64,000 nucleotides of DNA. Source: Bryobacterales bacterium (GTDB lineage: Bacteria; Acidobacteriota; Terriglobia; Bryobacterales; Bryobacteraceae). The stretch spans positions 1 through 64,000 of the forward strand of contig JAOAPR010000012.1 in NCBI GenBank assembly GCA_025463005.1, in the 5' to 3' direction. A program made the position numbers and the translations under genes. Positions 4,841 to 25,281 of the stretch are shown here, piece by piece. The notes below the pieces were generated by a model. That model worked only from the letters and a program-made list of their open reading frames with translations. It was not told the origin of the DNA and searched no databases. Numbering within the stretch: position 1 is the stretch's first letter; each line of letters opens with the position of its first letter.

Positions 4841-4849
4841 CCCGCGTCC

Positions 4850-6364: not shown

Positions 6365-6365
6365 C

Positions 6366-7367
6366 TTACTTTCCGAGTTCTTTGCGAACGATCTTTGTTC
6401 CCTCTACCATTGTCTTCAATTTTGAAAACGCCACGTCGCGCGGAAGGTGAAACAAGCCGCAGTCCGGCAGCACGAAGATTTTCTCCGGAGGCAGGACATC
6501 CAGCGCCTTGCGGATATGCTCCGCCACCATGTCCGGCGTCTCCACATCATGAATTTTGACATCGATGACGCCCACGCCGAGCTCGAACGAAGGCTTAAAC
6601 TCCTTAAACAGATCCAGATCCTCGCCGCCGCGCCGCGCGAACTCCATAGTCAACTGCTGAACGTTCGCTTCCATGATGGTCGGGAACAGGTACTGGTAAC
6701 TGCCCTCCCAGGAGGGCTTGCCGTAGCGGTTGCCGTAGCAGATGTGGACCCCGATCTTCGCATCCACGCCTTCCACCAGAGTGTTCAGCACCTTCACGGC
6801 CCACGGAAGATCTTCCGGAAACCCTGAGTAGTAGGGCTCATCGATCTGAATGAGTTTCGCTCCGGCTTTGGCGAGCGCTTTGAGCTCCATGTTCATCACC
6901 CGCGCGATGTCCATCGCCAGAGCTTCTTCGCTGGGATAAAACTCGTTGCGAATGCGCTTGGTAAGGCAGTGCGGTCCGGTAACGCAGAACTTGGTCTCGC
7001 GTTCCGCGAACGTCTGCAGGAATTTGAAGTCCGGTACCAGGCCCAGCGACGCCATCGGCAGCTTGCCCTTCACTACGCTGTCGTAGAAATCGTAATAGAA
7101 CTTCTTGGAAGTGCGGTCGATCTGCACGCCCGGAAAGCGCTCCAGGAAATAATCGACCATGTTGTCGCGGCGGGGCTCGCCGTCGGTGATGATATCCAGG
7201 CCGGCGACCTCCTGATCCTTGATCGCCGCCTTGACGGCTGTGTCATGGATTTCATCGAGCTCGTGCCGGCTGATCCGCCTGGCGAAATATTCTGTCTTGA
7301 GCCGTTCCAGCCACCCCGGCATCGCGTAGCTGCCGACCATGGTCGTGGGAAGAATGGGAAGAGCCAT
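6366..7367 (-). CDS. MetE catalytic-domain protein (core methionine synthase-like)
   Basis: A 333-residue protein corresponding only to the C-terminal barrel of cobalamin-independent methionine synthase; the N-terminal half that binds folate in full-length MetE (~750 aa) is absent. The zinc/homocysteine site is intact: H208 and C210 in VHICYGN, E242 in QLTMEFARR, C303 in LPDCGLFH. The E-to-C spacing of 61 matches the spacing I recall from E. coli MetE. Known relatives lacking the N-terminal half (core-MetE and the Mes families) take methyl groups from methyl-corrinoid proteins or unknown donors. Here it sits between a methyltransferase-like gene (10-base gap) and MetF-MetV (1-base gap), which points to methyl transfer to homocysteine or another thiol. 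The methyl donor cannot be read from sequence. Confidence 0.85.
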   Translation of the reverse strand: MALPILPTTMVGSYAMPGWLERLKTEYFARRISRHELDEIHDTAVKAAIKDQEVAGLDIITDGEPRRDNMVDYFLERFPGVQIDRTSKKFYYDFYDSVVKGKLPMASLGLVPDFKFLQTFAERETKFCVTGPHCLTKRIRNEFYPSEEALAMDIARVMNMELKALAKAGAKLIQIDEPYYSGFPEDLPWAVKVLNTLVEGVDAKIGVHICYGNRYGKPSWEGSYQYLFPTIMEANVQQLTMEFARRGGEDLDLFKEFKPSFELGVGVIDVKIHDVETPDMVAEHIRKALDVLPPEKIFVLPDCGLFHLPRDVAFSKLKTMVEGTKIVRKELGK

Positions 7368-12298: not shown

Positions 12299-12973
12299 TT
12301 AGCTCTGCTTGCTTTGCAGCTTATGATAGCCGATCTGCTTGCGGGCTTCCGTCAGCGTGTTTCCCTCATTCACCAGCCTGCGGATTTCAGTTTCCGCCGC
12401 ATCAATTTCCTCGGCAGCAGTCAGGATCACGTCTTCAAGGGCCTGAGGAATCGCCACTACGCCGTCCGCATCCCCGCGCAGAATGTCGCCCTGATTCACC
12501 CGTGCGTCGCCGATGTTCACCGCCCCGCCCATAGCCTCCACCTGCACGCGATCCTTCCCGGTACGCATGGAGTAACTGCGGCTGTAGATCGGATACGCAA
12601 GCTCGCGCGCCAGGTGCGTATCGCGGCAGGCGCCATCGATCACGGTCCCCGCCACGCCGCGACGGTTTGCGACCCAGGTCAGAATATCGCCCCACACCGT
12701 CGCATTTTCGCGGCCGCCGTTGTCCAACACCACCACGCCTCCCGGCGGCACGTCTTCGATGTAATCGCCCACCGTGCCGGGAGGGGATCCCGCCGGCCCG
12801 TACAGGATGGTGAACGCGCGGCCCGTCAGGCGAAACCGCGGATCCAGGGGCTTAATGTTTAGGCATTGGCCGGCGATGCCCAGCCGGTCCATCGCGTCGC
12901 TGAGAGCGGTGGTGTCCAGCTTAGCCGCCCGTTCCACGTTCTTGTCGTCGTTTAGTTTTTCTGCGTCTGCCAT
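12299..12973 (-). CDS. RraA-family aldolase (4-carboxy-4-hydroxy-2-oxoadipate aldolase type), intact metal motif
   Basis: 224 residues, matching the usual length of RraA/LigK-type proteins. The aldolase members cleave HMG or 4-carboxy-4-hydroxy-2-oxoadipate to pyruvate plus pyruvate or oxaloacetate, using divalent metal. The D-X20-R-D motif of active type II pyruvate aldolases is exact: D96 in VWGD, then R117-D118 in DGACRD. The glycine-rich RRGVAGTVIDG loop is also present. It is the last gene of the coupled catabolic set and starts 3 bases after a second RraA-like gene. A LigJ-type hydratase upstream makes exactly the substrate such an aldolase would cleave, so the catabolic role is favoured over RNase E inhibition. 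Confidence 0.85.
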   Translation of the reverse strand: MADAEKLNDDKNVERAAKLDTTALSDAMDRLGIAGQCLNIKPLDPRFRLTGRAFTILYGPAGSPPGTVGDYIEDVPPGGVVVLDNGGRENATVWGDILTWVANRRGVAGTVIDGACRDTHLARELAYPIYSRSYSMRTGKDRVQVEAMGGAVNIGDARVNQGDILRGDADGVVAIPQALEDVILTAAEEIDAAETEIRRLVNEGNTLTEARKQIGYHKLQSKQS

Positions 12974-12976
12974 TTT

Positions 12977-13627
12977 CTATTTCTTGAGCATGTTCTCGTA
13001 ATTTCCGGCCATCACCTGGCTGATCGGCGTGCCACCGCGAATCGCCTCCGCGAGGGCTTCCTCGCGCTGCATAATGGCTTCCGCGGCTTCGAGCACGCGC
13101 GCGATTTCGCTTTGCGCGACGAAGACCACGGCGCTCGCGTCTGCTATCACGTAGTCCCCGGGCGAAACGGTGACGTCGCCCACAGTGATCGGTTCATTGG
13201 TGGCGACTTCAACGATACGTCCGCGTGCGGTCCGAGCCGTATGGCTGCGTGCGAAGACCGTGAAATCCAGCTTGCGGCTGTCGTCAATATCGCGGGCGGG
13301 ACCTTCGACGATCACGCCGGCAACTCCGCGCGCCTGCGCGCCGATAGACAGATTCCCGCCCCACGACGCGGCGTCCAGGCCCGTGCGCTGCTCCACCACG
13401 ATGATGTCGCCCGACGAAGCAGCCTCGATCGCCGCCGTGCAGAGATGGCGCGTGTTGGTTCTGCCTTCCGCGCGGTCCAGCTTGACCGTCAGGACGCGGC
13501 CGGTGATGCGCCGGTCCGTCGAAAAGCGCTCGATCCCGGTGACCGACCCCTTGAGTCCGAGCTTATCCAGCGCGTCGGAGACAGCGCAGGAATCCAGGCG
13601 GCTCAGCCGCGAAACCATTTCGTCCAT
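12977..13627 (-). CDS. RraA-family protein, divergent metal-binding site
   Basis: 216 residues with the RraA fold signature (SDALDKLG near the N-terminus, RGVAGVIVEGPARD at ~100-113). The R112-D113 pair is kept, but the position 21 residues earlier that is Asp in active aldolases is Gly91, with Asn92 beside it, and the loop is one residue shorter than in the neighbouring paralogue. It may bind metal differently, pair with the other RraA in a mixed oligomer, or have another substrate. Translation is tightly linked: 6 bases after the permease stop and 3 bases before the next RraA start. Confidence 0.8.
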   Translation of the reverse strand: MDEMVSRLSRLDSCAVSDALDKLGLKGSVTGIERFSTDRRITGRVLTVKLDRAEGRTNTRHLCTAAIEAASSGDIIVVEQRTGLDAASWGGNLSIGAQARGVAGVIVEGPARDIDDSRKLDFTVFARSHTARTARGRIVEVATNEPITVGDVTVSPGDYVIADASAVVFVAQSEIARVLEAAEAIMQREEALAEAIRGGTPISQVMAGNYENMLKK

Positions 13628-13633
13628 TTATCG

Positions 13634-14434
13634 TTAGCGCTCAGGCCGCCACCGCGAGAAGCGCCGTTCCAGCCGCTCGGCGATCCAGGTCAGCAGGATC
13701 CCGGAAAATGCGATGACGATCATGCCCACGAAGAGCGTATCGGTATTGAAGGTTTGTCCACCGTAGGCGACCATGAAGCCAACACCTTGGCTGCTTCCCA
13801 CCATTTCGCCGACCACCACGCCGATCAATCCCAACGCAACGCCCTGCCGGATGCCGGTGAGGATGAACGGCACCGATCCGGGAATCGCAAGCGTCGTGAA
13901 AATCTGCCAGTCGGAAGCGCAGTAGGCCTTCGCCGCGCGCAATAGATCGCGATCCAGCGCCCGCACGCCGCCCACCGTGTTGATCAGGATGGGGAAGAAC
14001 GCCGAGAGGAATACGATAAATACTTTCGACCATATCCCGATTCCGAACCAGATGATGATCAGCGGAACCATCGCGACACGCGGCGTGGCGTAAAGTGCGC
14101 TGAGGAACGGATCGAAGAACAGCCGCAAGCGGCGGTACCAGCCGATCAACACCCCTGCTACCACGCCCGTGATCGCCGCCAGTCCGAAACCGATGGCAAA
14201 GTTGGTGCCGCTGTACTTCATGTCAGCGAGGAGAGTTCCCTCCATCAGCGTGTAACGAAATTGCTTGATGATCGCCGACGGACTGCTGAAGAACAGCGGC
14301 GAGATCAAGCCGGCGGACCAGCACGCCTGCCATACGCCGATCATCAGCACGACCGAAAGACTGCCTAGAATGACGGCCTCGTGCTTGGTATAGAAACTTT
14401 GGTGCGGGCGGCCGGATGGTTCCTTGCGTTTCAT
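13634..14434 (-). CDS. ABC transporter permease (SsuC/TauC type)
   Basis: 266 residues with about six membrane segments (first at ~20-40) and the EAA-like coupling loop around residues 165-185 (LLRAAKAYCASDWQIF followed by LAIPGSVPFIL). This is the inner-membrane subunit of an importer of the nitrate/sulfonate/taurine/aromatic family. It starts immediately after the stop of the ATPase gene with no gap. The partner genes are the NMT1-type binding protein and the ATPase directly upstream. The substrate is probably the acid catabolised by the LigJ and RraA enzymes encoded around it. Confidence 0.93.
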   Translation of the reverse strand: MKRKEPSGRPHQSFYTKHEAVILGSLSVVLMIGVWQACWSAGLISPLFFSSPSAIIKQFRYTLMEGTLLADMKYSGTNFAIGFGLAAITGVVAGVLIGWYRRLRLFFDPFLSALYATPRVAMVPLIIIWFGIGIWSKVFIVFLSAFFPILINTVGGVRALDRDLLRAAKAYCASDWQIFTTLAIPGSVPFILTGIRQGVALGLIGVVVGEMVGSSQGVGFMVAYGGQTFNTDTLFVGMIVIAFSGILLTWIAERLERRFSRWRPER

Positions 14435-15232
14435 CTACTTTTCTGCCAGAACCATATTGAGACGCTGCGATTCCTCTTCGATCAGTTGCCAGATGGCATC
14501 CTCGATCTCGAGGAACCTGGGGTCGCGCTTCAAAGCCAGCGTGCGCGGCCGTCCGAACGGAATCTTGAAGACTTCCTTGAGCCGGCCGGGACGCGCGCTC
14601 ATCACCGCGACACGATCCGCCAGGTACACCGCTTCATTGATCTGGTGAGTGATGAAGAGCACTGTCTTGCGAGCCTGCGACCAGATCTTCAACAGCTCGG
14701 CCTGCATGAACTCGCGCGTCTGCGCGTCCAGAGCCGCGAACGGCTCATCCATCAGCAGGACCTTCGGATCGGCCGCCAGCGCGCGGGCCAGATTTACACG
14801 CTGCTGCATGCCCCCGGACAGCTCGTTGGGATAATGACGCTCGAATCCATTGAGGCCCACCAGTTTCACGAAGTGCTCGGTCCGCTCGCGCATGGTGGCT
14901 TCATCGAAGCGGCGCTGCAGTTCCATCCCGTAACGAACGTTCCCGGCAATGGTCCGCCATGGCAACAGGCTGGACTGCTGAAACACTACGGCGCGGTCGA
15001 CGCCGGGTCCCCGCACCTGTTTGTCGTCGATGCTGACGGTGCCTTCTTCGTAGGGCAGCAGGCCGGCGACGATATTGAGCAGTGTGGTCTTGCCGCACCC
15101 GCTGGGACCCACGATGGCCAGAAATTCGCCGTCGGCGACGGCCAGAGAGACGTCGCTCACCGCAAGCACTTCGCGGTCCTCACGCTCGAACCAGTAGCGC
15201 TTAGACAGATGCTCGATGGACAGCTTAACCAT
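14435..15232 (-). CDS. ABC transporter ATP-binding protein (SsuB/TauB type)
   Basis: 265-residue cytoplasmic ATPase with Walker A GPSGCGKTT (~43-51), signature LSGGMQQRVNLARAL (~138-152) and Walker B VLLMDEPFAALD (~158-169), followed by the switch His in FITHQINEA. Family and context make it the energy subunit of the importer with the adjacent permease and binding protein. It begins 15 bases after the binding-protein stop. Confidence 0.95.
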   Translation of the reverse strand: MVKLSIEHLSKRYWFEREDREVLAVSDVSLAVADGEFLAIVGPSGCGKTTLLNIVAGLLPYEEGTVSIDDKQVRGPGVDRAVVFQQSSLLPWRTIAGNVRYGMELQRRFDEATMRERTEHFVKLVGLNGFERHYPNELSGGMQQRVNLARALAADPKVLLMDEPFAALDAQTREFMQAELLKIWSQARKTVLFITHQINEAVYLADRVAVMSARPGRLKEVFKIPFGRPRTLALKRDPRFLEIEDAIWQLIEEESQRLNMVLAEK

Positions 15233-15247
15233 GTGGTGCCGTGGCCG

Positions 15248-16279
15248 CTACTTAAATGCGAGCTTTGCCTTGCGATCCTCTTCCGCTTTGATGGTTGCGC
15301 CGAAAAGCGTCTCGAAGTACTTTTCCTTTACCAGGCGATCCACCGTGCTGTTATCGATCACCTTGTGGAAGTCGTAGGCCTTCATCTGCGCCGCCGTCTG
15401 CGGATCCGACTGCTGGGCCACAACCGCTTTGACGGCGTCGGCCAGCACGTAGGGTACGCGTTCGAAGGCGTTGGGCTTGGCATAAAGGTCGTAGATCCGC
15501 TCCACATCGGCCTGGGGCTGCTTGTCGTAGACCATGTAGGCTTTCACCGCGAAGGCCTTGTCTTCATAGAAGCGCTTGGTCGCTTCCGCCTGCGCCTTAA
15601 GCAGCAGCTCGGGCAGCTTGGGATTCGCCTGGATCTGGCTCTTCTTCATCAAAAAGCCCGTGGAGGCGAAGATATCGTCATGCTCGGATAGATTCGCCAG
15701 CGTCTTAAACCCGCCTGCCTCCAGCTTGAAAAATGCCGGTGCGGTCAGCATGGTGGCGTCGGCGCGGCCGCTCTCGAGCGCCGCGGCACGACCGCTCACG
15801 TCAGTACCCACCGGCACCCAAGTGACATCCCGCGCGCCCAAACCGGATTTCGAAAGCAGCGCGATCACATATCCGTACGGCGCATCGCCCACCTGGCCCA
15901 CTGCGATGCGTTTGCCCTTAAGGTCCTTGATGCTCGCCACGTCCTTGCGGGCCATCAGCGCAAACATGCCTTTGTTAAGCGAGCTGCCGACCAGAACCAT
16001 CGACCCGTCCTTCGAAGCAGCCTGCATCAGTTGCTCGAGAGACGAATTGACCAGCGCCGCATCACCGCTCACCAGCGCCGCGATGCTCCCCGGATGCACC
16101 ACGAATTTCAAATCCACGTCGAGCCCGTACTTTTGGTAATAGCCGCCTTCCTTCGCCAGGAACAAAGGCCACTGCGAGCCGCTGCGGTTGGGATAGATCA
16201 GAGTGATCTTCTCCGCGAATGCGGCCGGAGTGACCAGAGCCGCGACAATCAAGAATGCCAGCCAGATTCGAGATCTCAT
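15248..16279 (-). CDS. ABC transporter substrate-binding protein (NMT1/THI5-like, SsuA type)
   Basis: 343 residues. A Sec signal peptide (~1-22, ending AAFA-EK) is followed by the NMT1-like core: LIYPNRSGSQWPLFLAKEGG, YYQKYGLDVDL and ALVSGDAALVN. This is the periplasmic capture subunit for a small carboxylate, sulfonate or aromatic acid; the sequence does not show which. Its ATG overlaps the stop of the LigJ-like gene (ATGA at 16276-16279), so uptake and hydratase genes are translationally coupled, which links this importer to that pathway. Confidence 0.93.
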   Translation of the reverse strand: MRSRIWLAFLIVAALVTPAAFAEKITLIYPNRSGSQWPLFLAKEGGYYQKYGLDVDLKFVVHPGSIAALVSGDAALVNSSLEQLMQAASKDGSMVLVGSSLNKGMFALMARKDVASIKDLKGKRIAVGQVGDAPYGYVIALLSKSGLGARDVTWVPVGTDVSGRAAALESGRADATMLTAPAFFKLEAGGFKTLANLSEHDDIFASTGFLMKKSQIQANPKLPELLLKAQAEATKRFYEDKAFAVKAYMVYDKQPQADVERIYDLYAKPNAFERVPYVLADAVKAVVAQQSDPQTAAQMKAYDFHKVIDNSTVDRLVKEKYFETLFGATIKAEEDRKAKLAFK

Positions 16280-17310
16280 GAGCTGACTCCTTTCGCCTGC
16301 GGCTGAGTCGTCACGTCGAGCTTGAAGAGCTTCTTGGCGTTGTCCTCGAAGATCAGTTTCTTGTCCGCCGCGCTCAGCCAGTCGAAGGCTTCGATCAGGA
16401 AGCGGGTCTCATCGAGCCAGCGTCCCGTGCGTGGATCCTTTACCGTGCCGACCCCGGGCCGTTCCGTACCGAACAGGCATCGATCCGCGCCAACGGTCTT
16501 GATCAGCAGTTGGAGCGATTCGCTCGAATAGAGCACCGTGTCGTAATACAAATTGCGCATCTTGTCAGAGAAACGTTCGCCGCCCTTGCGGAGCGAGCTG
16601 GCTTCGAAGCGCGCCCAATGGTAGGGAATCGCCCCACCGCCGTGCGACACCAGAATCTTCAGCGCCGGAAAATCTTTGAAGACGTTCGATTCGAGCAGCG
16701 ATACGACACCGATGCTTTCCTCGTTAATGAAGTGCAGAGAGTACGGGAGGCGCGGCGATCGGCAGCCCGCAGAGTGGATGTGGCCAGGAATATCCAGCTC
16801 CACCAGCTTTTCGTACAGGGGATACCAGAAGCGGTCGCCCAGCGGAGGAGTTGTGGTGGACGTCGCCTCGCTCGGATCCGGGTTCAGCAGACATCCGACG
16901 AATCCCATCTCTTTGACGCACTTTTCCAAATACGGCAGCGTTTCCTTGGGGCTTACTCCGGGACTCTGCGGCAACCCGCACACTCCCCGAAACACATTGG
17001 GGTAGAACTTAGTCTGCTTGTGAATGATGTCATTGGTCTCTTCAATAAACCAGCGCACGACCTTGGGGTCCTCGCTATGCATCATCTGGTAGGGACGCGG
17101 CGAGATGAGCTGCATGTCGGTCCCGACTTCTTTGAGCTGCTGGAGATGGGAGGTGCCGCCGAAAACGGGTGAGTTCAGCGCGTCCTTGATCTCCTGGTCG
17201 GAAGCGCCGTGGCTGCCCCGGCCGTGCGCGCCCCGATGGGACAAGATGTTGGCCTTATAAACGTACAGTTTTTCGGGGGCCGTGACGTGGCCGTGTGAAT
17301 CGATAATCAT
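16276..17310 (-). CDS. ligJ: 4-oxalomesaconate hydratase-like amidohydrolase (LigJ type)
   Basis: 344 residues, the usual LigJ length. The MIIDSHGHV start, GTDMQLISPRPYQMMHSE, PPLGDRFWYPLYEKL, PYSLHFINEES, SHGGGAIPY and LIFEDNAKKLF blocks match remembered LigJ of the protocatechuate 4,5-cleavage pathway closely. Probable zinc ligands are H6, H8, H179 and E283 (in FGTERPG). LigJ hydrates the 4-oxalomesaconate tautomer 2-keto-4-carboxy-3-hexenedioate to 4-carboxy-4-hydroxy-2-oxoadipate, the substrate of RraA-type aldolases, two of which lie downstream. No ring-cleavage dioxygenase, dehydrogenase or lactonase of that pathway is in the window. The amidohydrolase family also contains decarboxylases, but the block matches favour the hydratase. 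An 89-base gap upstream holds a TATGAT that may give it its own promoter. Confidence 0.85.
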   Translation of the reverse strand: MIIDSHGHVTAPEKLYVYKANILSHRGAHGRGSHGASDQEIKDALNSPVFGGTSHLQQLKEVGTDMQLISPRPYQMMHSEDPKVVRWFIEETNDIIHKQTKFYPNVFRGVCGLPQSPGVSPKETLPYLEKCVKEMGFVGCLLNPDPSEATSTTTPPLGDRFWYPLYEKLVELDIPGHIHSAGCRSPRLPYSLHFINEESIGVVSLLESNVFKDFPALKILVSHGGGAIPYHWARFEASSLRKGGERFSDKMRNLYYDTVLYSSESLQLLIKTVGADRCLFGTERPGVGTVKDPRTGRWLDETRFLIEAFDWLSAADKKLIFEDNAKKLFKLDVTTQPQAKGVSS

Positions 17311-17399: not shown

Positions 17400-18662
17400 T
17401 CAGAATTTCTCGCGTGGGTCGGTGATTCGGCCCGCCAGCGCGGAGGCGGCGACCGTGGCCGCGGAACCCAGATAGTGCCGAGCCTTGGGGTGTCCGTTAC
17501 GGCCGGGGAAATTGCGCGCCTGGGTGGAGATCATCGCCTCCTGTTCGCTCATCGCGCCCATGTTGACCGCCTGGTTGGAGCCCGCGCTGGGCGGGAAAAT
17601 GATTCCGCCCGCTTCGACGATGGTTTCGAGCAGTCCTTCACGCAGCGCCGCCAGATAGACCCCCCGGGTGACCGGCACCACTTGGAGCCGCACATGCCGG
17701 TGAACCTTTCGCCCCTGAAGGGCGCGCGCCAGAACGCGCATATCGCCCAGACGTCCTCCCGTGCTGCCGCCGATTTCGGCCAACTGGATCTCAATTCCCG
17801 TAACATCCCCAATCGGTTTAACGTTGCCGACCGTGGGGGGACAGGCAACCTGCGGGTCAAGCTTCGCTACGTCCACCTGGATGACCTTGGAATACTGGAC
17901 GTCAGGATCGTTCTTGAACAGCTCGAAATCTTTACGGCCTGAGTACCTGTGCGCGAAGGCGGCAGTCTTCTCGTCCGGATTGATGTAACCGGCCTTGGCG
18001 CCTAGATCGATCGCCATCAGGGGAAACAACATCCGGTCTTCGATCGACAGGCTTTCGATAAATGGACCGGCATACTCGACGGCGCGGTAGACTGCGCTGT
18101 CCTCGCCCAGAAAGCCTTCCAGATACTGCGCCACGTCGCGCGGGCTCACGCCGCTTTGCAGAGAACCGTGAAGAACCACCTGAATGGTCTCGGGAACGCG
18201 GAACCAGGCTTTGCCGTGCGCATAGCCCAGCGCGGCCATGGAATTATTCCCAACACCGGTGGAGAAAACGCCCAGCGCACCGTAAACGGTGGTGTGGGAA
18301 TCGCAGCCGATGATCACGTTCCCGGGCGCCCACAAGCCATTTTCGACGATCACGTAATGGATGCTGCCCGAGCCGGAATCGAAAACATTTCGGATTCCGT
18401 ATTTTGCCGCGAACCGGCGCGCTTCCGTAAGGACGTCGGCATCGGCCTGGCTGGGCGGCGAGAACGTATGGTCGAAAACAAACGCGATCCGGTCGGGATC
18501 GAAAATCGTGCCGCCTCCCATCTCGTTTTCGAAAACCTTCGAGACCAGGTTTGAGCTGAGATCATGCAGGACCATGCGGTCCACGTTGGCGACTACGATA
18601 TCGCCGGGCGTGACCTCCTTCTTGCCGCTCGCTCTGGCAAGAATTTTTTCGATCATGTTCAT
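17400..18662 (-). CDS. Aconitase/isopropylmalate-dehydratase-type large subunit lacking Fe-S cysteines
   Basis: The start is ATG 18662, which overlaps the upstream stop as ATGA. The 420 residues align without gaps at key sites to the other large subunit in this window (23525-24784). DHT at 64-66, the GCDSHTTVYGALG block (120-132) and the C-terminal ARHYLGSAAT block are kept. The three [4Fe-4S] ligands C300, C360 and C363 of the paralogue are S300, A360 and N363 here. Only two cysteines remain (C120, C274), neither at a cluster position. Loss of the ligands with retention of other active-site blocks suggests a functional, cluster-free enzyme or regulatory subunit rather than decay. The probable small-subunit partner is the gene at 21728-22243 in the same coupled set. 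The reaction is unknown. Confidence 0.9.
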   Translation of the reverse strand: MNMIEKILARASGKKEVTPGDIVVANVDRMVLHDLSSNLVSKVFENEMGGGTIFDPDRIAFVFDHTFSPPSQADADVLTEARRFAAKYGIRNVFDSGSGSIHYVIVENGLWAPGNVIIGCDSHTTVYGALGVFSTGVGNNSMAALGYAHGKAWFRVPETIQVVLHGSLQSGVSPRDVAQYLEGFLGEDSAVYRAVEYAGPFIESLSIEDRMLFPLMAIDLGAKAGYINPDEKTAAFAHRYSGRKDFELFKNDPDVQYSKVIQVDVAKLDPQVACPPTVGNVKPIGDVTGIEIQLAEIGGSTGGRLGDMRVLARALQGRKVHRHVRLQVVPVTRGVYLAALREGLLETIVEAGGIIFPPSAGSNQAVNMGAMSEQEAMISTQARNFPGRNGHPKARHYLGSAATVAASALAGRITDPREKF

Positions 18663-19591
18663 AGCAGGGCGGCTCCGAGTTCGTCGCGCAGGCAAGTATC
18701 ACCGTAAAACAAGCGCGCGTCGTCAGTGGCGGATTCTACCTGGAGCGCAAATATCGGCCCCGGTCCCATCTCCGAGGGGTACGGGCCGGCAAGATTCTCA
18801 GTGTGACCGATACCGGCACGCAGAGTGGCGATGAATCGATCCTCCAGCGCCTTGCGGGCGGCTTCCGACGTCCATGCGCGCGTGACCTTGACCCAGTGCC
18901 CTCGATATTCGAGTGCGACGGCGACTGAAAACTCTTCCGCAAGTTTTTCGCCTCGGGCCGGAGCGGGAGCGGATTCACCCGTACTGAAAAGCAGCCGTAG
19001 GTCTTCGGCGCCGGCTCTGCGAAATGCTCGCTCGAGCAGCCCCGAGAATTGGTAGTCGGTCAAGCCGGAGCCATTTCGCAGTTCCCGGCTGAGAACGTCG
19101 CGGGCCAGGCGCGCGGCACGCCGCCGCATATCGAGTTCGGCATCGTCGACAAAGCTCAGCGGCACATCCTCGGTCGCGACGCTGCTCTTCTTCAGCGGCG
19201 CGTACACTTCATGAGGAACGCGCGGGCGATCCAGAACACCGAGTTTCGTCCACCCGCGCTCGGCGCAAACTTGGAGCAGCGCCGGCACGAGTTTCCCGGC
19301 CGGCCGGATATCTTCGAACATCGTGACGGAGCGGATCCACGGATACACGCGTGGCGAGAGTGCACACAGCAGAATAGGGCGGTCGCCTCGCGGGATCACG
19401 ACCAGCGACCGGTTCCAATACGGCATGAAGTTTGTAAAAAAGCGCGCCTGGTTGGATCGCAACACATCGCTGTAGATCATCAGCGCGGGGAGCTGCCGAT
19501 CTTCGAGCGCCCCATGGACCACCGCAAGCCGTTTCTCGAACACCGATGGGGCGAGCTCGACTTGATCCCAGGTAATGAGTCCGCGTTTCAT
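18659..19591 (-). CDS. M24-fold (creatinase/aminopeptidase P-like) protein, all metal ligands lost
   Basis: 310 residues. The N-terminal creatinase-type domain (~1-140, with ARFFTNFMPYW and VVIPRGDRP) is followed by a shortened pita-bread domain. The strand that normally carries two Asp metal ligands reads SVAVALEYRGHWVKVTRAW, and the final strands read FALQVE and YGDTCL where Glu ligands are expected. None of the five canonical ligands is present, and the His-bearing middle segment is missing. A peptidase is therefore unlikely; known metal-free members of this fold hydrolyse C-N bonds (creatinase). It overlaps both neighbours by ATGA junctions and sits beside a second degenerate M24 gene, so the two may form a heteromer. 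Confidence 0.7.
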   Translation of the reverse strand: MKRGLITWDQVELAPSVFEKRLAVVHGALEDRQLPALMIYSDVLRSNQARFFTNFMPYWNRSLVVIPRGDRPILLCALSPRVYPWIRSVTMFEDIRPAGKLVPALLQVCAERGWTKLGVLDRPRVPHEVYAPLKKSSVATEDVPLSFVDDAELDMRRRAARLARDVLSRELRNGSGLTDYQFSGLLERAFRRAGAEDLRLLFSTGESAPAPARGEKLAEEFSVAVALEYRGHWVKVTRAWTSEAARKALEDRFIATLRAGIGHTENLAGPYPSEMGPGPIFALQVESATDDARLFYGDTCLRDELGAALL

Positions 19592-20658
19592 TTGGAAAAC
19601 AACTTCTTCTCGGTCTTATTGAGCGGCGTGTTACCGGATTCGGTCACCAGCAGCGTATCGCCAAACACCATGTAGCCGGAAAGCGGCAGATACGTGTTGG
19701 GGTGCGCGATCAGCACCATATCCTGCTTGAGAACGTAATCGACGTCTTCCAGGATGTGCGGCGTTTCGTCCGGATAAAGACCCAGGCAGTGCCCGCGCAC
19801 ACGCGTGTACTTCGCTCCGGTGTACTCTCCATATCCGTATTTACGAAACACGTCGTTTTGCGCGCGCGCTGCGTCGGCAGCGGTAATGCCGGGCTTGATC
19901 AGGTCCTGCGCGGCGCGCTGGGCTTCAGAGAATATCTCGAAAGCTTCGATCTGTTCCGGCGACGGATCGCCCAGCACGAGCGTCCGGCAGATCTGAGCGT
20001 AATAGCCGTTGACCTGAGGCGTCAGTTCGGTGGTGACGGAATCGCCCTTCTGAAATTTGCGATTGGTGGGCGGCTTCATGCCGACGACTTCGGTGCCGCC
20101 CGAAGCGATCAGCATGAAATTGTCCGCTGCGCCGTTCGTCTTGAGAAACGCCTCGACCTCCGCCACCAGCTCGAACTCGCGCATACCAGGCTCGATCACT
20201 TCGGCGAAATGCTGGTAGCCCCGATCCGCAAGATCGGCGGCCTGCTTCAGATAATCGATCTCTTCGGCAGTCTTGACGCGGCGCAGTTCTTCGACATCGG
20301 CTGTCGCGGAAACCGGCAGCTTCCCGCACGCGTCGACGAACCGCTCTTCCATAAACTCCAACCCGGCAATTGCGGATGCCCCCCCCACAAACGCCTGGGC
20401 GAATTCGGGCTCCAGCACTGCCGAACTTCCCAGAGCATCGGCCAGGTTCTCGTAGTCCCAGGGATCGCTCACACTTGCGGTGAGGTCGCCTGATCGGGAC
20501 AAACGCGCAAGCGCATGGGGACCGGCGAAGTTGAAGTTCACCAGGCTGCGAAACGGATCTGTGCGCCAATTATTGCCGTAAAGCATCAGATGGTCCCAGC
20601 TGCGCTCGGCCATCAGATCCAGCAACTGCCGGCGGCGATGTTCGTTTATCGCGCTCAC
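19588..20658 (-). CDS. M24-fold hydrolase (creatinase/ectoine-hydrolase-like), degenerate metal site
   Basis: GTG 20658 is preferred because it forms a GTGA overlap with the upstream stop; a longer ATG start at 20682 is possible. The 356 residues show an N-terminal creatinase domain, RRVKTAEEIDYLKQA at the domain boundary, then the pita-bread domain. At the five M24 metal positions it has E211, Q222, H290 (RGHCLGL), H319 (IAHPNTY) and G333 (VFGDTLLVTE), against the canonical D, D, H, E, E. The retained His and DT-LLVTE scaffold but lost carboxylates resemble metal-independent creatinase-type enzymes. Together with the adjacent cyclodeaminase-like gene it recalls the EutD/EutC pair of ectoine catabolism, but the deacetylase and EutB partners are absent. 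Confidence 0.8.
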   Translation of the reverse strand: MSAINEHRRRQLLDLMAERSWDHLMLYGNNWRTDPFRSLVNFNFAGPHALARLSRSGDLTASVSDPWDYENLADALGSSAVLEPEFAQAFVGGASAIAGLEFMEERFVDACGKLPVSATADVEELRRVKTAEEIDYLKQAADLADRGYQHFAEVIEPGMREFELVAEVEAFLKTNGAADNFMLIASGGTEVVGMKPPTNRKFQKGDSVTTELTPQVNGYYAQICRTLVLGDPSPEQIEAFEIFSEAQRAAQDLIKPGITAADAARAQNDVFRKYGYGEYTGAKYTRVRGHCLGLYPDETPHILEDVDYVLKQDMVLIAHPNTYLPLSGYMVFGDTLLVTESGNTPLNKTEKKLFSK

Positions 20659-21731
20659 GGCGAGACGCTCTCCAGAAACCATTCTGTGGGAAGTTCTTTA
20701 CCCAAGCCCATCGCCCGCGCGCGCTTCACCACTGCTGAACCTACTGCCGCAAACTGCGTTCCCGCGCCGGTATTATTGTTGAACAGCGTGATCTGATCGG
20801 GACCGGTTCGGCCCGGGAGCTTGCCGGCGACGAGATCCTGAAGCTCGCCGATGTCTTCCCAGCGGACAATGCCCTTCTGGGCGGCTTCCCACACGTCGGG
20901 CGACTGATCGTTGCGAGCGACTTCCTTCGAGTGAACGAAATATACGTCGGCGCGCCGGATGGTCTCGTCGTCGATCTCGCGGCGCTTGTTGCTGGCATCC
21001 GAGCCGCCGATAGACGCCACGTACATGCCTTTTTCTACCCAATTACCGTCGAACACTGGGTCCCACGCAGCGGTCGCAGCTTGCACGAAATCGCTGCCCT
21101 CGACTGCATCATGGGCCGTGCTTACCGCTCGGACTTCGCGGCCGAGTTTTTCCGACATGCTGCGGCAGAACTCGCGGCAGTGTTCCTGATTCGGGCTGAA
21201 CACCTTAATCTGATCGAAGTTGTACTGCGCTGCCAGGAATTCGAGATGCGCGCCGGCTTGCCAACCGCTGCCGAATAATCCGAGCACTCCAGGCTTCTCG
21301 GGCGCCAGATAGCGCGCGCCTACCGCGCTCATCGCGGCGACCCGTACCTTCTGAATCACGCCGTCGGGCATGATCGCTACGGGTTCAATTCGTTCGACGT
21401 CAAAGAGTATCACCAGTCCGCAATACTTGTTTCCGGTAGCAACTGGCAGAATGCGCCTCCGTTTGACGCCCGCGGTGTAAGAAAACCCGGCCATGTCGGA
21501 AGTGATGCGCAGCGCCCACACTCCGCAATCCAGGCTCCCGCCCTCTTGTGTTTTCATCCGGTACTGAAAGCCCGGATTCTCGCGCGATTCGGCCGGCAGG
21601 TACACCTGCGACCGCGCGCGGTTGAGCGCCTTGCCTTCGGCCAGCTCCCGATAGATGCTTTCAGTCGCGGCGATCGCGTCCTGAGGTGTCAGCGCCTGCT
21701 CCACCTCTTCATTGGTCAATAACAGGGTCAT
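20655..21731 (-). CDS. Ornithine cyclodeaminase / mu-crystallin family protein
   Basis: 358 residues. The N-terminal catalytic domain contains LTPQDAIAATESIYRELAEG and GLVILFD; the Rossmann domain carries VLGLFGSGWQAGAHLEFL (~148-165), the dinucleotide-binding loop of this family. Members are NAD(H)-dependent and act on imines or cyclic amino acids (ornithine cyclodeaminase, ketimine reductase, alanine dehydrogenase, EutC). It is coupled to the M24-like gene (GTGA overlap) and to the small aconitase-type subunit upstream (4-base overlap). Context suggests a step on a nitrogen-containing precursor before the polycarboxylate steps. Confidence 0.88.
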   Translation of the reverse strand: MTLLLTNEEVEQALTPQDAIAATESIYRELAEGKALNRARSQVYLPAESRENPGFQYRMKTQEGGSLDCGVWALRITSDMAGFSYTAGVKRRRILPVATGNKYCGLVILFDVERIEPVAIMPDGVIQKVRVAAMSAVGARYLAPEKPGVLGLFGSGWQAGAHLEFLAAQYNFDQIKVFSPNQEHCREFCRSMSEKLGREVRAVSTAHDAVEGSDFVQAATAAWDPVFDGNWVEKGMYVASIGGSDASNKRREIDDETIRRADVYFVHSKEVARNDQSPDVWEAAQKGIVRWEDIGELQDLVAGKLPGRTGPDQITLFNNNTGAGTQFAAVGSAVVKRARAMGLGKELPTEWFLESVSP

Positions 21732-22243
21732 GATTCGAGCAGGGTTCTCCCGGCGTCTGATTTCAGCAGCGGGATCAGGCCGCCCGCGCGCAGCATGTCG
21801 AGCAGCAGGCCCGACGGCGCTCGTCCCTGGATGGATTTACCGGTGGTCAAATTCTCCACGATACCTTGTTCGATGTTCACCCGGATGCGATGGCCGGTTT
21901 CCACCAGATCGTGCAGTCCCGGCGCTTCCAGAAGCGCCAGACCGATCTCCGGGCCATTGCGATAAAACGTGCGCGAGAAGAATTCGGCGATTACCGCGCC
22001 GACTCCGGTGGCCTTAATCGCTTTGGGCGCAATGGCGCGGCCCGACGAGCAGCCGAAATTCCGCCCGGCGACGATAATGTCGCCCTTCTGCACGTTCTTC
22101 GGAAAGTCGGTGTTGGCGTTTTCGAGAACGTGCTTGACCATTTCGCCCATGCCGCGCATCACGTACGCCGTTGGCGTGATCATGTCGGTGGGAATGTTGT
22201 GGCCGAACTTCCAGCAGTTGCCTTCCATAATTAACGGGGTCAT
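21728..22243 (-). CDS. Aconitase/isopropylmalate-dehydratase-type small subunit
   Basis: 171 residues, the usual length of LeuD-type swivelling-domain subunits. The NCWKFGHNIPTDMITPT start and GRNFGCSSGRAIAPKA loop (60-74) place S67 and R69 at the catalytic Ser and substrate-binding Arg, but the following Glu/His of the usual SSREH motif are replaced by Ala and Ile. FFSRTFYRNGPEIGLALLE follows. It is 3 bases after the MFS stop and overlaps the cyclodeaminase start. It probably pairs with the Fe-S-free large subunit five genes downstream, not with the divergent Fe-S pair, which has its own small subunit. Confidence 0.87.
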   Translation of the reverse strand: MTPLIMEGNCWKFGHNIPTDMITPTAYVMRGMGEMVKHVLENANTDFPKNVQKGDIIVAGRNFGCSSGRAIAPKAIKATGVGAVIAEFFSRTFYRNGPEIGLALLEAPGLHDLVETGHRIRVNIEQGIVENLTTGKSIQGRAPSGLLLDMLRAGGLIPLLKSDAGRTLLES

Positions 22244-22246
22244 TTT

Positions 22247-23479
22247 CTAAGCTTGGACGGGAACCGGCGCGGGACGCGGCGCTCGCAATCGTCCGGCGGC
22301 GAACAGCAGCAGGAACGCCACGCTCGAGGACATCAGAGACACCGTGAAAGACGATGCATAGTTGTGCGTCTGATCGAAAATCATCCCGGCGACCAGACCG
22401 CCGGAAGAGGTTCCGACGCCGAAGAACATCATGAATAGCCCGAGAATCGTGCCGACCCGTTCGGTCCCGAAGTGTTCGAAGGCAATGAGCGGCGGAGCGT
22501 TGAACACTCCGCCATAGCCGAGTCCGAACATCGCCGCCGACCAGTAGACTACGGGCGAGCCCGGCCCGACCGCCAGAAGGCCGCCGATTCCCGCCGCGAG
22601 GCACACGATGCTCCACAGCAGCGACACGCGGGCCGAATACTTATCGGCAATCGCTCCACCGCCGATCTTGCCGACGGCGCTCGCGCCTAACAGCATGCTC
22701 AAGGCGAACGCCGCGTTGGTTGGGGTGACGCCGTGCCCAGTCAAATACAGCGCCAGGTGCTGCTGGATGCCGGTCAGCGTATGGGCGGCGAAAAACAGGC
22801 TGAATCCGAAGATCCAGAACATCGGGGTCTTGATGACGTCGCCGGCTTTGCTGAGGCTGTGCCGCCGCGCGGCGGCCGGTGCCTTCGGCGACACATTCGA
22901 ACCGCGCACCAGGACCAGCGTCACGATGAACGGAATCGCCATCAACGCCGCGAGGGCAACAAACGCGTACGACATACTAAACGTCTCGATCAGTTTCCTG
23001 GTCAGGTTCGGCGCGATGAAGCCAGCGACGCCGACTCCGGCGTTGATGACGCCTACCGCAAGGCCGCGCTTGGTCGAAAACCATGGCGCGATCAGCATCG
23101 AGGTCGGCACCAGAGATACCGCGGCAGTGCCAATGCCGAACAAAACACAGTACGTATAGTATTGCGGCAGCCCTGCGATGGTCGAAAGCAGCGCCAACGA
23201 TAGCGCGCCGATGCACATGCCCGTCAGCAGGACTTTCTTCGGTGTGAAGCGGTCTGTCAGGCGTCCTATGACCGGACCTAGCACTCCGATCAATAACAGG
23301 ACAATCGAGCCGCCTGCCGAGGCCTGGGCCGCGTTCCAGCCATACATTTTCCGCAAAAACGGATAGAAAATCGGGAGTGAAAATAACGCGAAGGAAAACG
23401 CCACCATCAGGATGGTGAACGATGCCAGCAGCACCTGCCAGCCCGCCACAGGTTGACGGTGATTGGAAACGCTAGGCAA
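22247..23479 (-). CDS. MFS transporter (OFA / monocarboxylate-type)
   Basis: 410 residues with about twelve membrane segments. The major-facilitator loop GPVIGRLTDRFTPKK lies between helices 2 and 3, and GKIGGGAIADKYSARV is the mirror loop between helices 8 and 9. The overall pattern resembles oxalate/formate or monocarboxylate carriers. The annotated start is a TTG at 23479 with AGGAG too close to it, so the exact start is uncertain; GTG 23449 is another candidate. It heads the minus-strand catabolic set, giving the pathway a second uptake route beside the ABC importer. Only 45 bases separate it from the divergent aconitase-type gene, so the promoters must be packed into that gap or into coding sequence. 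Confidence 0.9.
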   Translation of the reverse strand: MPSVSNHRQPVAGWQVLLASFTILMVAFSFALFSLPIFYPFLRKMYGWNAAQASAGGSIVLLLIGVLGPVIGRLTDRFTPKKVLLTGMCIGALSLALLSTIAGLPQYYTYCVLFGIGTAAVSLVPTSMLIAPWFSTKRGLAVGVINAGVGVAGFIAPNLTRKLIETFSMSYAFVALAALMAIPFIVTLVLVRGSNVSPKAPAAARRHSLSKAGDVIKTPMFWIFGFSLFFAAHTLTGIQQHLALYLTGHGVTPTNAAFALSMLLGASAVGKIGGGAIADKYSARVSLLWSIVCLAAGIGGLLAVGPGSPVVYWSAAMFGLGYGGVFNAPPLIAFEHFGTERVGTILGLFMMFFGVGTSSGGLVAGMIFDQTHNYASSFTVSLMSSSVAFLLLFAAGRLRAPRPAPVPVQA

Positions 23480-23524: not shown

Positions 23525-24784
23525 ATGGGATATACGATTGCCGAAAAAATTCTCGCCGCGAAGTCCGGGAAAACGTCCGTGCGACCGGGCGAGATCGTCG
23601 ACGCTTATCCCGATCTGGTGATGAGCCACACGGCGACGTGGCGATCGGTCAGCGTGATGCAGAAGGTGGGGGCTTCCAAGCTCTACGATCCGGACCGGCT
23701 GGCGGTGGTTCTGGACCACATTGCTCCCGCGAAAACCGAGAAGAACGCGACCGATCAACAGGTGAGTCGCAATTTCGCGCGCACCAATGGCATCAACAAG
23801 TTTTACGACGTGGACGCAGGCATCGCGCACCTGGTTCTGATGGAAGCGGGACACGTCGCGCCGGGCGATCTGATCGTCGGCACCGATTCCCACTGCACCA
23901 TCTATGGCAGCCTGGGCGCGCTCGGAACTGGCATCGGCTATACCGAAGTCGCATCGGTGTGGATCACCGGCAAGTTGTGGATGAAGGTGCCTGAGACGTT
24001 CAAGATCAGCCTCAGCGGAAAGCTCGCGCCGGGCGTTTATTCGAAGGACCTGATGCTCTATCTGATCGGGACCCTCGGCGCTGATGGCTGCGGATACAAA
24101 GCGGTTGAGTTTCATGGCGACGCCGTCACAGGCCTCAGCGTTTCGGAACGCATGACCATGACCAACCTGGCCATGGAAATGGGCGTGAAGTGCGCGTTCG
24201 TGCCGCCGGATGCGAAGACCGAAGAGTATCTCCGGGGACGGCTGGATGAATCCAAGCGCTATCAGCCTGTGTACGCCGACGCGGACGCCGCGTATGAAAA
24301 AGAACTCTCAGTGGACTTAGGCAAGCTCGAACCAATGGTCGCCTGCCCGCACGAAGTCCAGAACACCAAACCGATTCAAGCAGTCGAGGGAACGCGCATC
24401 GACCAGGCGTTCCTGGGATCGTGCGCCAACGCCAAGTACGAAGATCTGGAAGTCGCGGCGCGCATTCTGAAGGGCCGACGAATTCATCCGAATGTCCGGC
24501 TGATCATTACTCCGGGGTCAAAAGAGATTCTGCTGGAAGCTTCCAAGACCGGGGTTTTCCAGACGCTGCTCGAAAGCGGCGGAATGTTCACCAATCCGGG
24601 CTGCGGCGCCTGCGCGGGCGACGGCGGGATTATGGCCGATGGCGAAGTCTGCCTCTCTACGGCGAATCGAAATTTCATCGGACGCATGGGAAGCAGCAAG
24701 GCCGAGATTTATCTATCGAGCCCAGCCACGCTGGCCGCTTCGGCGATCAAAGGCGTGATTTCCGATCCGCGGGAGTTTTTCTGA
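23525..24784 (+). CDS. leuC: 3-isopropylmalate dehydratase / aconitase-type large subunit, Fe-S intact
   Basis: ATG 23525 is preferred: AGAAGGG precedes it and the family start GYTIAEKILAAKSG follows. The 419 residues fit the short archaeal-type LeuC/homoaconitase class. All three [4Fe-4S] ligands are present: C300 in FLGSCANAKYEDL, and C360 and C363 in NPGCGACAGDGG. The DSHCTIYGSLG block is at 121-131. It would hydrate and dehydrate an unsaturated di- or tricarboxylate. The small subunit follows with a 1-base TGATG overlap. Leucine biosynthesis is possible, but leuA and leuB are not nearby, and divergence from the catabolic set suggests a catabolic (aconitate- or oxalomesaconate-like) substrate. 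The gene symbol denotes family only. Confidence 0.9.
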   Translation: MGYTIAEKILAAKSGKTSVRPGEIVDAYPDLVMSHTATWRSVSVMQKVGASKLYDPDRLAVVLDHIAPAKTEKNATDQQVSRNFARTNGINKFYDVDAGIAHLVLMEAGHVAPGDLIVGTDSHCTIYGSLGALGTGIGYTEVASVWITGKLWMKVPETFKISLSGKLAPGVYSKDLMLYLIGTLGADGCGYKAVEFHGDAVTGLSVSERMTMTNLAMEMGVKCAFVPPDAKTEEYLRGRLDESKRYQPVYADADAAYEKELSVDLGKLEPMVACPHEVQNTKPIQAVEGTRIDQAFLGSCANAKYEDLEVAARILKGRRIHPNVRLIITPGSKEILLEASKTGVFQTLLESGGMFTNPGCGACAGDGGIMADGEVCLSTANRNFIGRMGSSKAEIYLSSPATLAASAIKGVISDPREFF

Positions 24785-25281
24785 TGGAGCAAACCATTCA
24801 AGGCCGCGCCTACAAGTTCGGCGACAACGTCAATTCCGACATCATCATTCCAGGACGTTATCTGATCTACATCGATCGCGAACGGCTGGCCCAGCATGCG
24901 TTCGAAGTATTGGGCGAAGGATTTCCGGCCAAGCTGCGCGAGTTTCAGATCCTGGTCGCGGGCCGCAACTTCGGCTGCGGCAGTGCGCGCGAGCAGGCCG
25001 CAACTGCCATCCAGGGGCTCGGGATCCAAGCCGTGGTGGCGTGCTCCTTCGCGCGAACGTTCTATCGCAACGCAATCAACGATGGGCTGCCGATTTTCGA
25101 ATGCCCCGAATTGTATCCGGATGTGCAGGAAGGCGATTCGCTGCGGATCGATCTGGCGGCCAGCAAGATCCACCTTCGTGAAAAAGAATACGCGTTTCCC
25201 CAACTGCCCGACTCGGTCAAAAAGATCCTGGAGCTGGGCGGTCTGGCGGCCTATCTCAAGACCCAGCTGCACGGGACGTAG
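24784..25281 (+). CDS. leuD: 3-isopropylmalate dehydratase / aconitase-type small subunit
   Basis: The start ATG 24784 overlaps the large-subunit stop (TGATG), so the two are translationally coupled. 165 residues, family length. KFGDNVNSDIIIPGRYL matches the conserved N-terminus. In GRNFGCGSAREQA the catalytic-type S67 and R69 are present, but the second Ser of the usual SSRE is Ala68. SFARTFYRNAINDGLPIFECPEL follows. It forms the swivelling half of the dehydratase with the Fe-S subunit. The symbol denotes family only; the substrate is uncertain. Confidence 0.9.
   Translation: MEQTIQGRAYKFGDNVNSDIIIPGRYLIYIDRERLAQHAFEVLGEGFPAKLREFQILVAGRNFGCGSAREQAATAIQGLGIQAVVACSFARTFYRNAINDGLPIFECPELYPDVQEGDSLRIDLAASKIHLREKEYAFPQLPDSVKKILELGGLAAYLKTQLHGT

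Follow-up and report, generated by a model that had tools for sequence, protein, structure and literature searches.

A clade of LeuC-type proteins lacking the cysteine ligands of the aconitase iron-sulfur cluster: a candidate cluster-free class in the aconitase superfamily

The window (the whole 64,000-nucleotide stretch of DNA analyzed here) encodes, on the minus strand at 17400..18662, a large subunit of the aconitase/IPMI family in which the three cluster cysteines are replaced by S300, A360, and N363. This protein, termed LeuC-nc, belongs to a clade in which those cysteines were absent from all 25 distinct members (the window protein counted). At the level of sequence, the loss of the cluster ligands, the conservation of the protein, its retained residues, the existence of a dedicated small-subunit clade, and the linkage to an Fe-S LeuC are established. 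The leading reading, which is held tentatively, is that LeuC-nc and its small subunit (LeuD-nc) would form a catalytic, cluster-free LeuC-LeuD heterodimer that relies on acid-base chemistry and operates beside an Fe-S LeuCD in the catabolism of a probably nitrogenous di- or tricarboxylate.

The gene for LeuC-nc starts with the ATG at 18662 and terminates with the stop codon at 17400-17402; its 420-aa product is free of internal stops. The original prediction of an intact gene at this position was sound, with the correction that the coding strand is the minus strand (the plus-strand reading of 17400-18662 contains stops). The protein was compared to its paralog in the window, LeuC-c (23525..24784, plus strand, 419 aa), an ordinary, divergently transcribed large subunit that has C300, C360, and C363. 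The small subunit of the latter, LeuD-c (24784..25281, plus strand, motif GCGSARE), was recognized by family match, alignment, and tree. LeuC-nc and LeuC-c were 40% identical over 417 columns that included 5 gap positions; the two had been described as collinear to the residue, which was too strong, but the residue numbers given for them were right. The substitution of S300/A360/N363 for C300/C360/C363 was confirmed in the alignment, and the DSH block (D121-S122-H123) was retained, as had been stated. The gene was also correctly placed, intact, among tightly coupled neighbors: it has a 4-base overlap with the upstream gene, and 89 bases separate it from the downstream one.

In the Pfam scan, PF00330 was the sole family matched by LeuC-nc (232.3 bits; cut-off, 28.7). 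Of the NCBIfam models, the cut-offs of NF001614 (431 bits; cut-off, 385) and TIGR01343 (419.9; 385.7) were exceeded, and that of TIGR02086 (397.8; 410.15) was not. The functional (equivalog) models were not reached: LEU2 (TIGR02083) gave 389.5 bits where 610.65 are needed, and HacA_Meth (NF040615) gave 346.1 where 550 are needed. No match to the AcnX family was found in the Pfam and NCBIfam scans at E <= 0.001. An AlphaFold2 model of LeuC-nc, calculated with 18 sequences, had a mean pLDDT of 85.8 and a pTM of 0.87; its weak regions were pocket loops (block means of 68 for residues 61-70, 64 for 141-150, 63 for 361-370, and 59 for 381-390). The best PDB match of the model was the IPMI large subunit 4kp1 (Z 50.9, rmsd 2.3, 412 aligned), next to which stood 4kp2 (IPMI/homoaconitase large subunit; Z 50.6, rmsd 2.0, 407 aligned) and aconitase 1b0j (Z 37.2, rmsd 2.5, 407 aligned). 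AcnX was matched more weakly, with Z values of 17.8-18.4 (7cnp: Z 18.4, rmsd 4.2, 343 aligned), and Foldseek ranked the structural matches in the same order.

LeuC-nc is thus like LeuC/HacA in its full-length fold, 37-39% identity, separate small subunit, and possession of the DSH block and other catalytic positions. It is unlike them in the missing cluster cysteines, the altered cluster-side shell, and the scores under the LEU2 and HacA_Meth cut-offs. By descent and fold, it is a LeuC-type member of the aconitase superfamily; the cofactor feature is lacking, and the protein is therefore not to be filed as an IPMI or a homoaconitase. A role as a leucine or TCA enzyme was considered and rejected: the functional models were not reached, and the same genome has two further frames, one LeuC-like (contig C308) and one of 922 aa that is aconitase-like (contig C126).

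The loss of the cysteines was uniform. In a first alignment of 110 rows (duplicates kept), the 42 clade rows had none of the three cysteines, the 68 rows outside the clade had all three, and there were no mixed rows; the 68 were LeuC-type rows with the paralog included, and loci were taken for the best matches only, so that they represent part of the matches listed. Among the 25 distinct members, position 300 was Ser in 12, His in 12, and Thr in 1; position 360 was Ala in 16, Thr in 8, and Ser in 1; and position 363 was Asn throughout. The S/A/N triplet proposed for orthologs is accordingly strict at N363 and variable at the other two positions. The original prediction had allowed for a sequencing error or decay as the source of the triplet. 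That outcome was contradicted by the absence of the cysteines from 25 of 25 orthologs in several phyla and by purifying selection; moreover, other cluster-side residues were also lost, the catalytic ones were kept, and the LeuD encoded at 21728-22243 fell in a matching clade.

Nineteen loci with relatives of LeuC-nc, at 53-92% identity, were located in a scan of species-representative genomes. The scan matched exact peptide patterns taken from the window protein (the cysteine positions lay outside the listed patterns) and delivered 72 stretches; all 19 relatives belonged to the LeuC-nc clade, and the census is biased. The source names of these loci were Terriglobia/Bryobacteraceae/Acidobacteria, Deltaproteobacteria, Peptococcaceae, Lachnospiraceae, and Spirochaetales/Treponema/Spirochaetaceae. 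Five further distinct members (L028, L029, L030, L103, and L104) were obtained from whole-genome profile searches, for a total of 25 with the window; clade members scored 632-802 bits in these searches, versus 438 bits for the best other LeuC. Members are found, then, in Acidobacteriota, "Deltaproteobacteria", Lachnospiraceae, Peptococcaceae, and Spirochaetota.

The clade is rare and patchy. Within the window's family, 6 of the 150 genomes searched carried LeuC-nc; the sample of the window's phylum gave 1 of 297 (the window's own genome). The phylum of the Lachnospiraceae genome yielded 2 carriers among 348 genomes, that of two "Deltaproteobacteria" 3 among 345 and 3 among 247 (these two samples overlap), and that of the Spirochaetaceae genome 1 among 247; the center genomes of these other-phylum samples were picked as carriers of the gene and are counted, and the first pass of the genome searches scored few candidates per genome. 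Members from distant phyla had 53-56% identity to the window protein, which suggests horizontal spread of LeuC-nc. In a tblastn search of plasmids, 537 records were matched, each at <60% identity (the best-ranked at 39.1%). Two irregular frames were observed. A Treponema MAG (L022/L063; L022 10001-11248) has an in-frame TAG in LeuC-nc, with the frame ending at 378 aa; the three candidate causes are a pseudogene, an assembly error, or a reassigned codon. A TGA was reported inside the LeuC-nc match of G112/G162, yet the frame in L012 yields 417 aa.

For the six pairs formed by LeuC-nc of the window, L006, L007, and L008, dN was 0.016-0.061 and dS was 0.63-0.91, giving dN/dS values of 0.03-0.08; LeuC-c was much alike (dN 0.027-0.041, dS 0.54-0.79). 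By these codon comparisons, the LeuC-nc lineage is under purifying selection. In a 64-row LeuC tree from which the two cysteine segments were excluded, all 25 members lay on one side of a branch with a length of 0.67 and an SH-aLRT of 100. A recent duplication of LeuC-c as the origin of LeuC-nc was ruled out by the 40% identity and this deep split. The 16 operon Fe-S LeuC rows occupied two positions in the tree, but a single grouping was not rejected (p-AU 0.281), and we do not claim that the partner Fe-S LeuC was recruited twice independently.

Residue equivalences were derived from an alignment to PDB aconitase and a LeuC-internal alignment. D64, H65, H102, D121, S122, and H123 of LeuC-nc were kept in 25 of 25 members, and R383 and R388 were kept in 24 of 24 (L022 ends before both). 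The kept set is equivalent to aconitase D100, H101, H147, D165, S166, H167, R447, and R452; for D64/H65, which lie outside the printed aconitase alignment, the equivalence to D100/H101 is assumed from the aconitase sequence. The changed positions were on the cluster side, i.e. the equivalents of aconitase C358, C421, C424, N258, E262, and N446, of which we take N258 and N446 to border the cluster. The N258 equivalent was Leu in 20 clade members, Met in 3, and His in 2, versus Asn in 39/39 comparison rows; the E262 equivalent was Asp in 25/25, versus Glu in 39/39. At the N446 equivalent, the clade had Ala in 21, Val, Pro, and Thr in one each, and one missing residue, and the 39 comparison rows had Asn in 35, Ser in 3, and Thr in 1. 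Twenty-two clade-signature positions (invariant within the clade, <=5% alike outside) were found, including D219, E296, G299, S362, N363, Q364, and N367; position 219 was Glu in 39/39 other rows. As judged from these alignments, the cluster shell is lost and the substrate shell is retained, a pattern unlike random decay.

The small (swivel-domain) subunit LeuD-nc (21728..22243, minus strand) is the presumed partner of LeuC-nc. It carries the motif GCSSGRA and was assigned by NCBIfam TIGR02087 (148.8 bits; cut-off, 108.95), by alignment, and by membership in a clade of its own. S67 and R69 of LeuD-nc align with S642 and R644 of aconitase. According to PMC8184944, S642 is the general base of aconitase. 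Twenty LeuD proteins from nine loci were compared: SSGR was present in 12/12 of the LeuC-nc type, and [GN]S[AS]RE (GSARE or NSSRE) in 8/8 of the Fe-S type. The LeuC-nc-associated and Fe-S-associated sets were split in the LeuD tree at 99/96 support. LeuD-nc thus appears to be dedicated to LeuC-nc. Two LeuD-nc genes stand behind LeuC-nc in L018 (11264-12275), L019, L022 (11304-12330), and L023 (11308-12299); in L018, L022, and L023, one LeuC-nc may pair with either of two small subunits.

In aconitase, the proton at the alpha carbon is abstracted by a Ser alkoxide, the hydroxyl receives a proton from His101 as it leaves, and the cluster contributes its open iron as the Lewis acid (PMC8184944). 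We infer from the retained residues that LeuC-nc and LeuD-nc constitute a catalytic aconitase/IPMI-type heterodimer in which the [4Fe-4S] cluster has been lost for good; the heterodimer, the absence of any metal, the reaction, the substrate, and the pathway are all deduced, and the residue roles are mostly transferred from aconitase. The dicarboxylate part of the substrate would be held as in aconitase by R383 and R388 of LeuC-nc and R69 of LeuD-nc. Ser67 of LeuD-nc would be the alpha-proton base, and D64-H65, H102, and D121-S122-H123 of LeuC-nc would supply the acid or proton relay. The former cluster cavity would be occupied by the conserved set D219, E296, G299, S362-N363-Q364, and N367. 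Because the Ser base and the His acid are kept and the ligands of the Lewis acid are absent, the pair would be expected to perform an isomerization or a Lewis-acid-free elimination: most likely a proton-shift isomerization, or else a beta-elimination/addition in which the leaving group (e.g. an amine) departs more readily.

Other explanations were weighed against this one. An unlikely one is that the cluster was swapped for a mononuclear metal (Fe, Zn, Mn, or Mg) with D219, E296, and H102/H123 as ligands, joined by H300 in half of the clade; the protein would still be a hydro-lyase with a Lewis-acid ion. D219 and E296 are clade-specific carboxylates, and 12 of 25 members have His at position 300, but the remaining members (Ser 12, Thr 1) leave no common ligand there, and the pocket loops were modeled at low confidence. 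For AcnX, before its [2Fe-2S] structure, an earlier proposal had been a mononuclear Fe(III) center coordinated by one Glu and two Cys, as recounted in PMC8184944. It is more doubtful still that LeuC-nc is a non-catalytic, pseudoenzyme-like protein that pairs with or regulates the Fe-S LeuC-c/LeuD-c. An Fe-S-type LeuC was encoded in the same stretch at 18 of 25 loci (the window, L006-L009, L013, L014, L016-L020, L022-L024, L114, L115, and L117), as such a partnership would have it; it was absent from the fetched stretch at the other seven (L010, L011, L012, L015, L021, L116, and L118), three of which are on contigs of <5.6 kb. Loss of a cofactor site is also typical of pseudoenzymes. The reading is made less likely because the acid-base and carboxylate-binding residues (as aligned to aconitase) are kept and the dedicated LeuD-nc clade retains S67 and R69; nor is LeuC-nc a recent copy of LeuC-c, to which it is 40% identical and from which it is parted by the 0.67-long branch.

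It is improbable that the protein, in the manner of AcnX, retains a [4Fe-4S] or smaller cluster on a different set of ligands (other cysteines, His300, cysteines of LeuD, or Asn/Asp). AcnX does bind its [2Fe-2S] or [3Fe-4S] cluster by three cysteines at positions unlike those of other aconitases, according to PMC8184944, and LeuD-nc of the window has two cysteines, C10 and C65. However, most LeuD-nc rows have Gln in place of C65, and the only cysteines in LeuC-nc of the window are C120 and C274. No Cys column was invariant among the 25 clade members; the best, position 274, was Cys in 19/25 and also in 11/16 of the operon Fe-S LeuC rows. The equivalents of N258 and N446 were altered too. The in-frame stop in L022 could be cited for an artifact or a decaying pseudogene, a negligible prospect for the clade: independent assemblies from several phyla agree, the frame is open, the gene overlaps are tight, and dN/dS is 0.03-0.08. 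Sequencing error and pseudogene were refuted by the conservation across assemblies and the dN/dS values.

LeuC-nc was also compared with known departures from the aconitase pattern. The closest known case of a remodeled cluster site is AcnX: it is a member of the superfamily with an altered site, it superposes on LeuC-nc (at the Z values given above), and type IIa AcnX potentially has just two of the ligand cysteines (PMC8184944). AcnX nevertheless still binds a [2Fe-2S] or [3Fe-4S]/[4Fe-4S] cluster according to PMC8184944 and PMC10040528, and LeuC-nc is far closer to LeuC, with PF00330 as its only Pfam match. A further likeness lies in the neighboring genes, where OCD-family genes also adjoin LeuC-nc. 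The product of AcnX is reduced by an OCD-family enzyme. IRP1/IRP2 combine the aconitase fold with another role that does not involve the cluster; apo-IRP1 binds RNA without it. Each IRP is a single chain of much greater length, and IRP1 retains the cysteines, whereas LeuC-nc is a short LeuC-type subunit encoded together with a LeuD in what looks like a catabolic operon.

The use of an Fe-S cluster as a Lewis acid is classically illustrated by aconitase. The characterized members of the superfamily named in PMC8184944 and PMC10040528, AcnX included, bind an Fe-S cluster. No description of a cysteine-free LeuC-type protein was found in searches of an open-access collection of papers. The clade may represent a natural cluster-free class in the superfamily that is metal-free, acts together with an Fe-S LeuCD, and belongs to an undescribed pathway spread between distant phyla; we regard this as plausible while stopping short of calling it probable. 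The evidence suggests an old enzyme fold rebuilt to work without its classic metal center. If that is true, LeuC-nc offers a natural test of the cluster's purpose, i.e. of which reactions the scaffold alone can perform and by what route a metalloenzyme loses its metal. The clade also suggests that soil Acidobacteriota and anaerobes share a catabolic gene set not yet described, and it warns that the annotation "3-isopropylmalate dehydratase" is functionally wrong for LeuC-nc genes.

In the window, the run is ordered MFS, LeuD-nc, OCD, M24, M24s, LeuC-nc, with gaps of 3, -4, -28, -4, and -4 bases, all on the minus strand. The MFS transporter (22247..23434, with a provisional start codon; PF07690) is the run's first gene and lies 3 bases before LeuD-nc. 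OCD (20655..21731) is of the ornithine cyclodeaminase/mu-crystallin family (PF02423; PDB matches 6t3e, 2e-31, and 6rqa, 6.7e-25); no NCBIfam equivalog was matched at its cut-off, and the protein is a probable imine reductase or amino acid dehydrogenase. M24 (19588..20682; PF00557) is of the creatinase/prolidase type (PDB matches 1pv9, 3.6e-39, and creatinase 1chm, 4.4e-18). In its alignment, 4 of 5 positions differed from what we take to be the five-position metal-ligand pattern of M24 proteins. M24s (18659..19591), which has the 4-base overlap with LeuC-nc, is a short protein of the creatinase/prolidase fold; no Pfam or NCBIfam family was found for it, and it was identified from its model, which matched M24 structures in a fold search (best Foldseek E, 2.3e-14). 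The M24/M24s tandem (18659-20682, minus strand) is found again at loci from Acidobacteriota, Lachnospiraceae, Peptococcaceae, and Spirochaetota. The pair is possibly a metal-free heterodimeric hydrolase or lyase.

Among 20 clustered stretches, OCD was encoded in 13, M24 in 12, M24s in 13, UbiD-type proteins in 3, and a PreA-like dehydrogenase in 5 (those of Lachnospiraceae, Peptococcaceae, and Spirochaetota). Neighbors were partly group-specific, with OCD and UbiD in "Deltaproteobacteria", the PreA-like dehydrogenase and TRAP in Lachnospiraceae/Spirochaetota, and LigY-like and RraA genes in the closest relatives only. L018 has a PreA-like dehydrogenase, an IclR regulator, and a TRAP transporter as neighbors, and L115 has an isochorismatase-type hydrolase. 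The OCD, creatinase-type, PreA-like, and isochorismatase-type neighbors suggest a nitrogen-containing substrate. In this setting, LeuC-nc/LeuD-nc would catalyze one catabolic step for a probably nitrogen-containing di- or tricarboxylate, and the ordinary Fe-S LeuCD would catalyze the neighboring, hydroxy-acid step. No single known pathway fitted the neighbors by family and structure searches, as they vary between groups; orotate- and citrazinate-type routes were considered and found to be unsupported. UbiD decarboxylases were detected in L016, and BLAST connected them to relatives in L114 and L115. Their genes lie by the LeuC pair at 3667-6729 and 12697-14127 in L016 and at 427-1860 and 4007-5551 in L114, which are "Deltaproteobacteria" loci; the window has no such arrangement.

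Beyond LeuC-nc, the order after the 89 bases is LigY-like, SBP, ABC, RraA, RraA. These same-strand genes (12299..17310, minus strand) encode a LigY-like amidohydrolase (16276-17310), an NMT1-type substrate-binding protein (15248-16279), an ABC ATPase, a permease, and two RraA-like aldolases. They adjoin LeuC-nc only in close relatives (all six in L006; the amidohydrolase in L007 and L008) and are therefore probably outside the LeuC-nc core. The LigY-like gene, the NMT1-type ABC importer, and the two RraA-like aldolases suggest, by their family assignments, aromatic acid catabolism. The amidohydrolase is nearest to LigY (PDB 5vn5, E 2e-119), a biphenyl meta-cleavage hydrolase of lignin catabolism, and is farther from 4-oxalomesaconate hydratase (7.2e-67).
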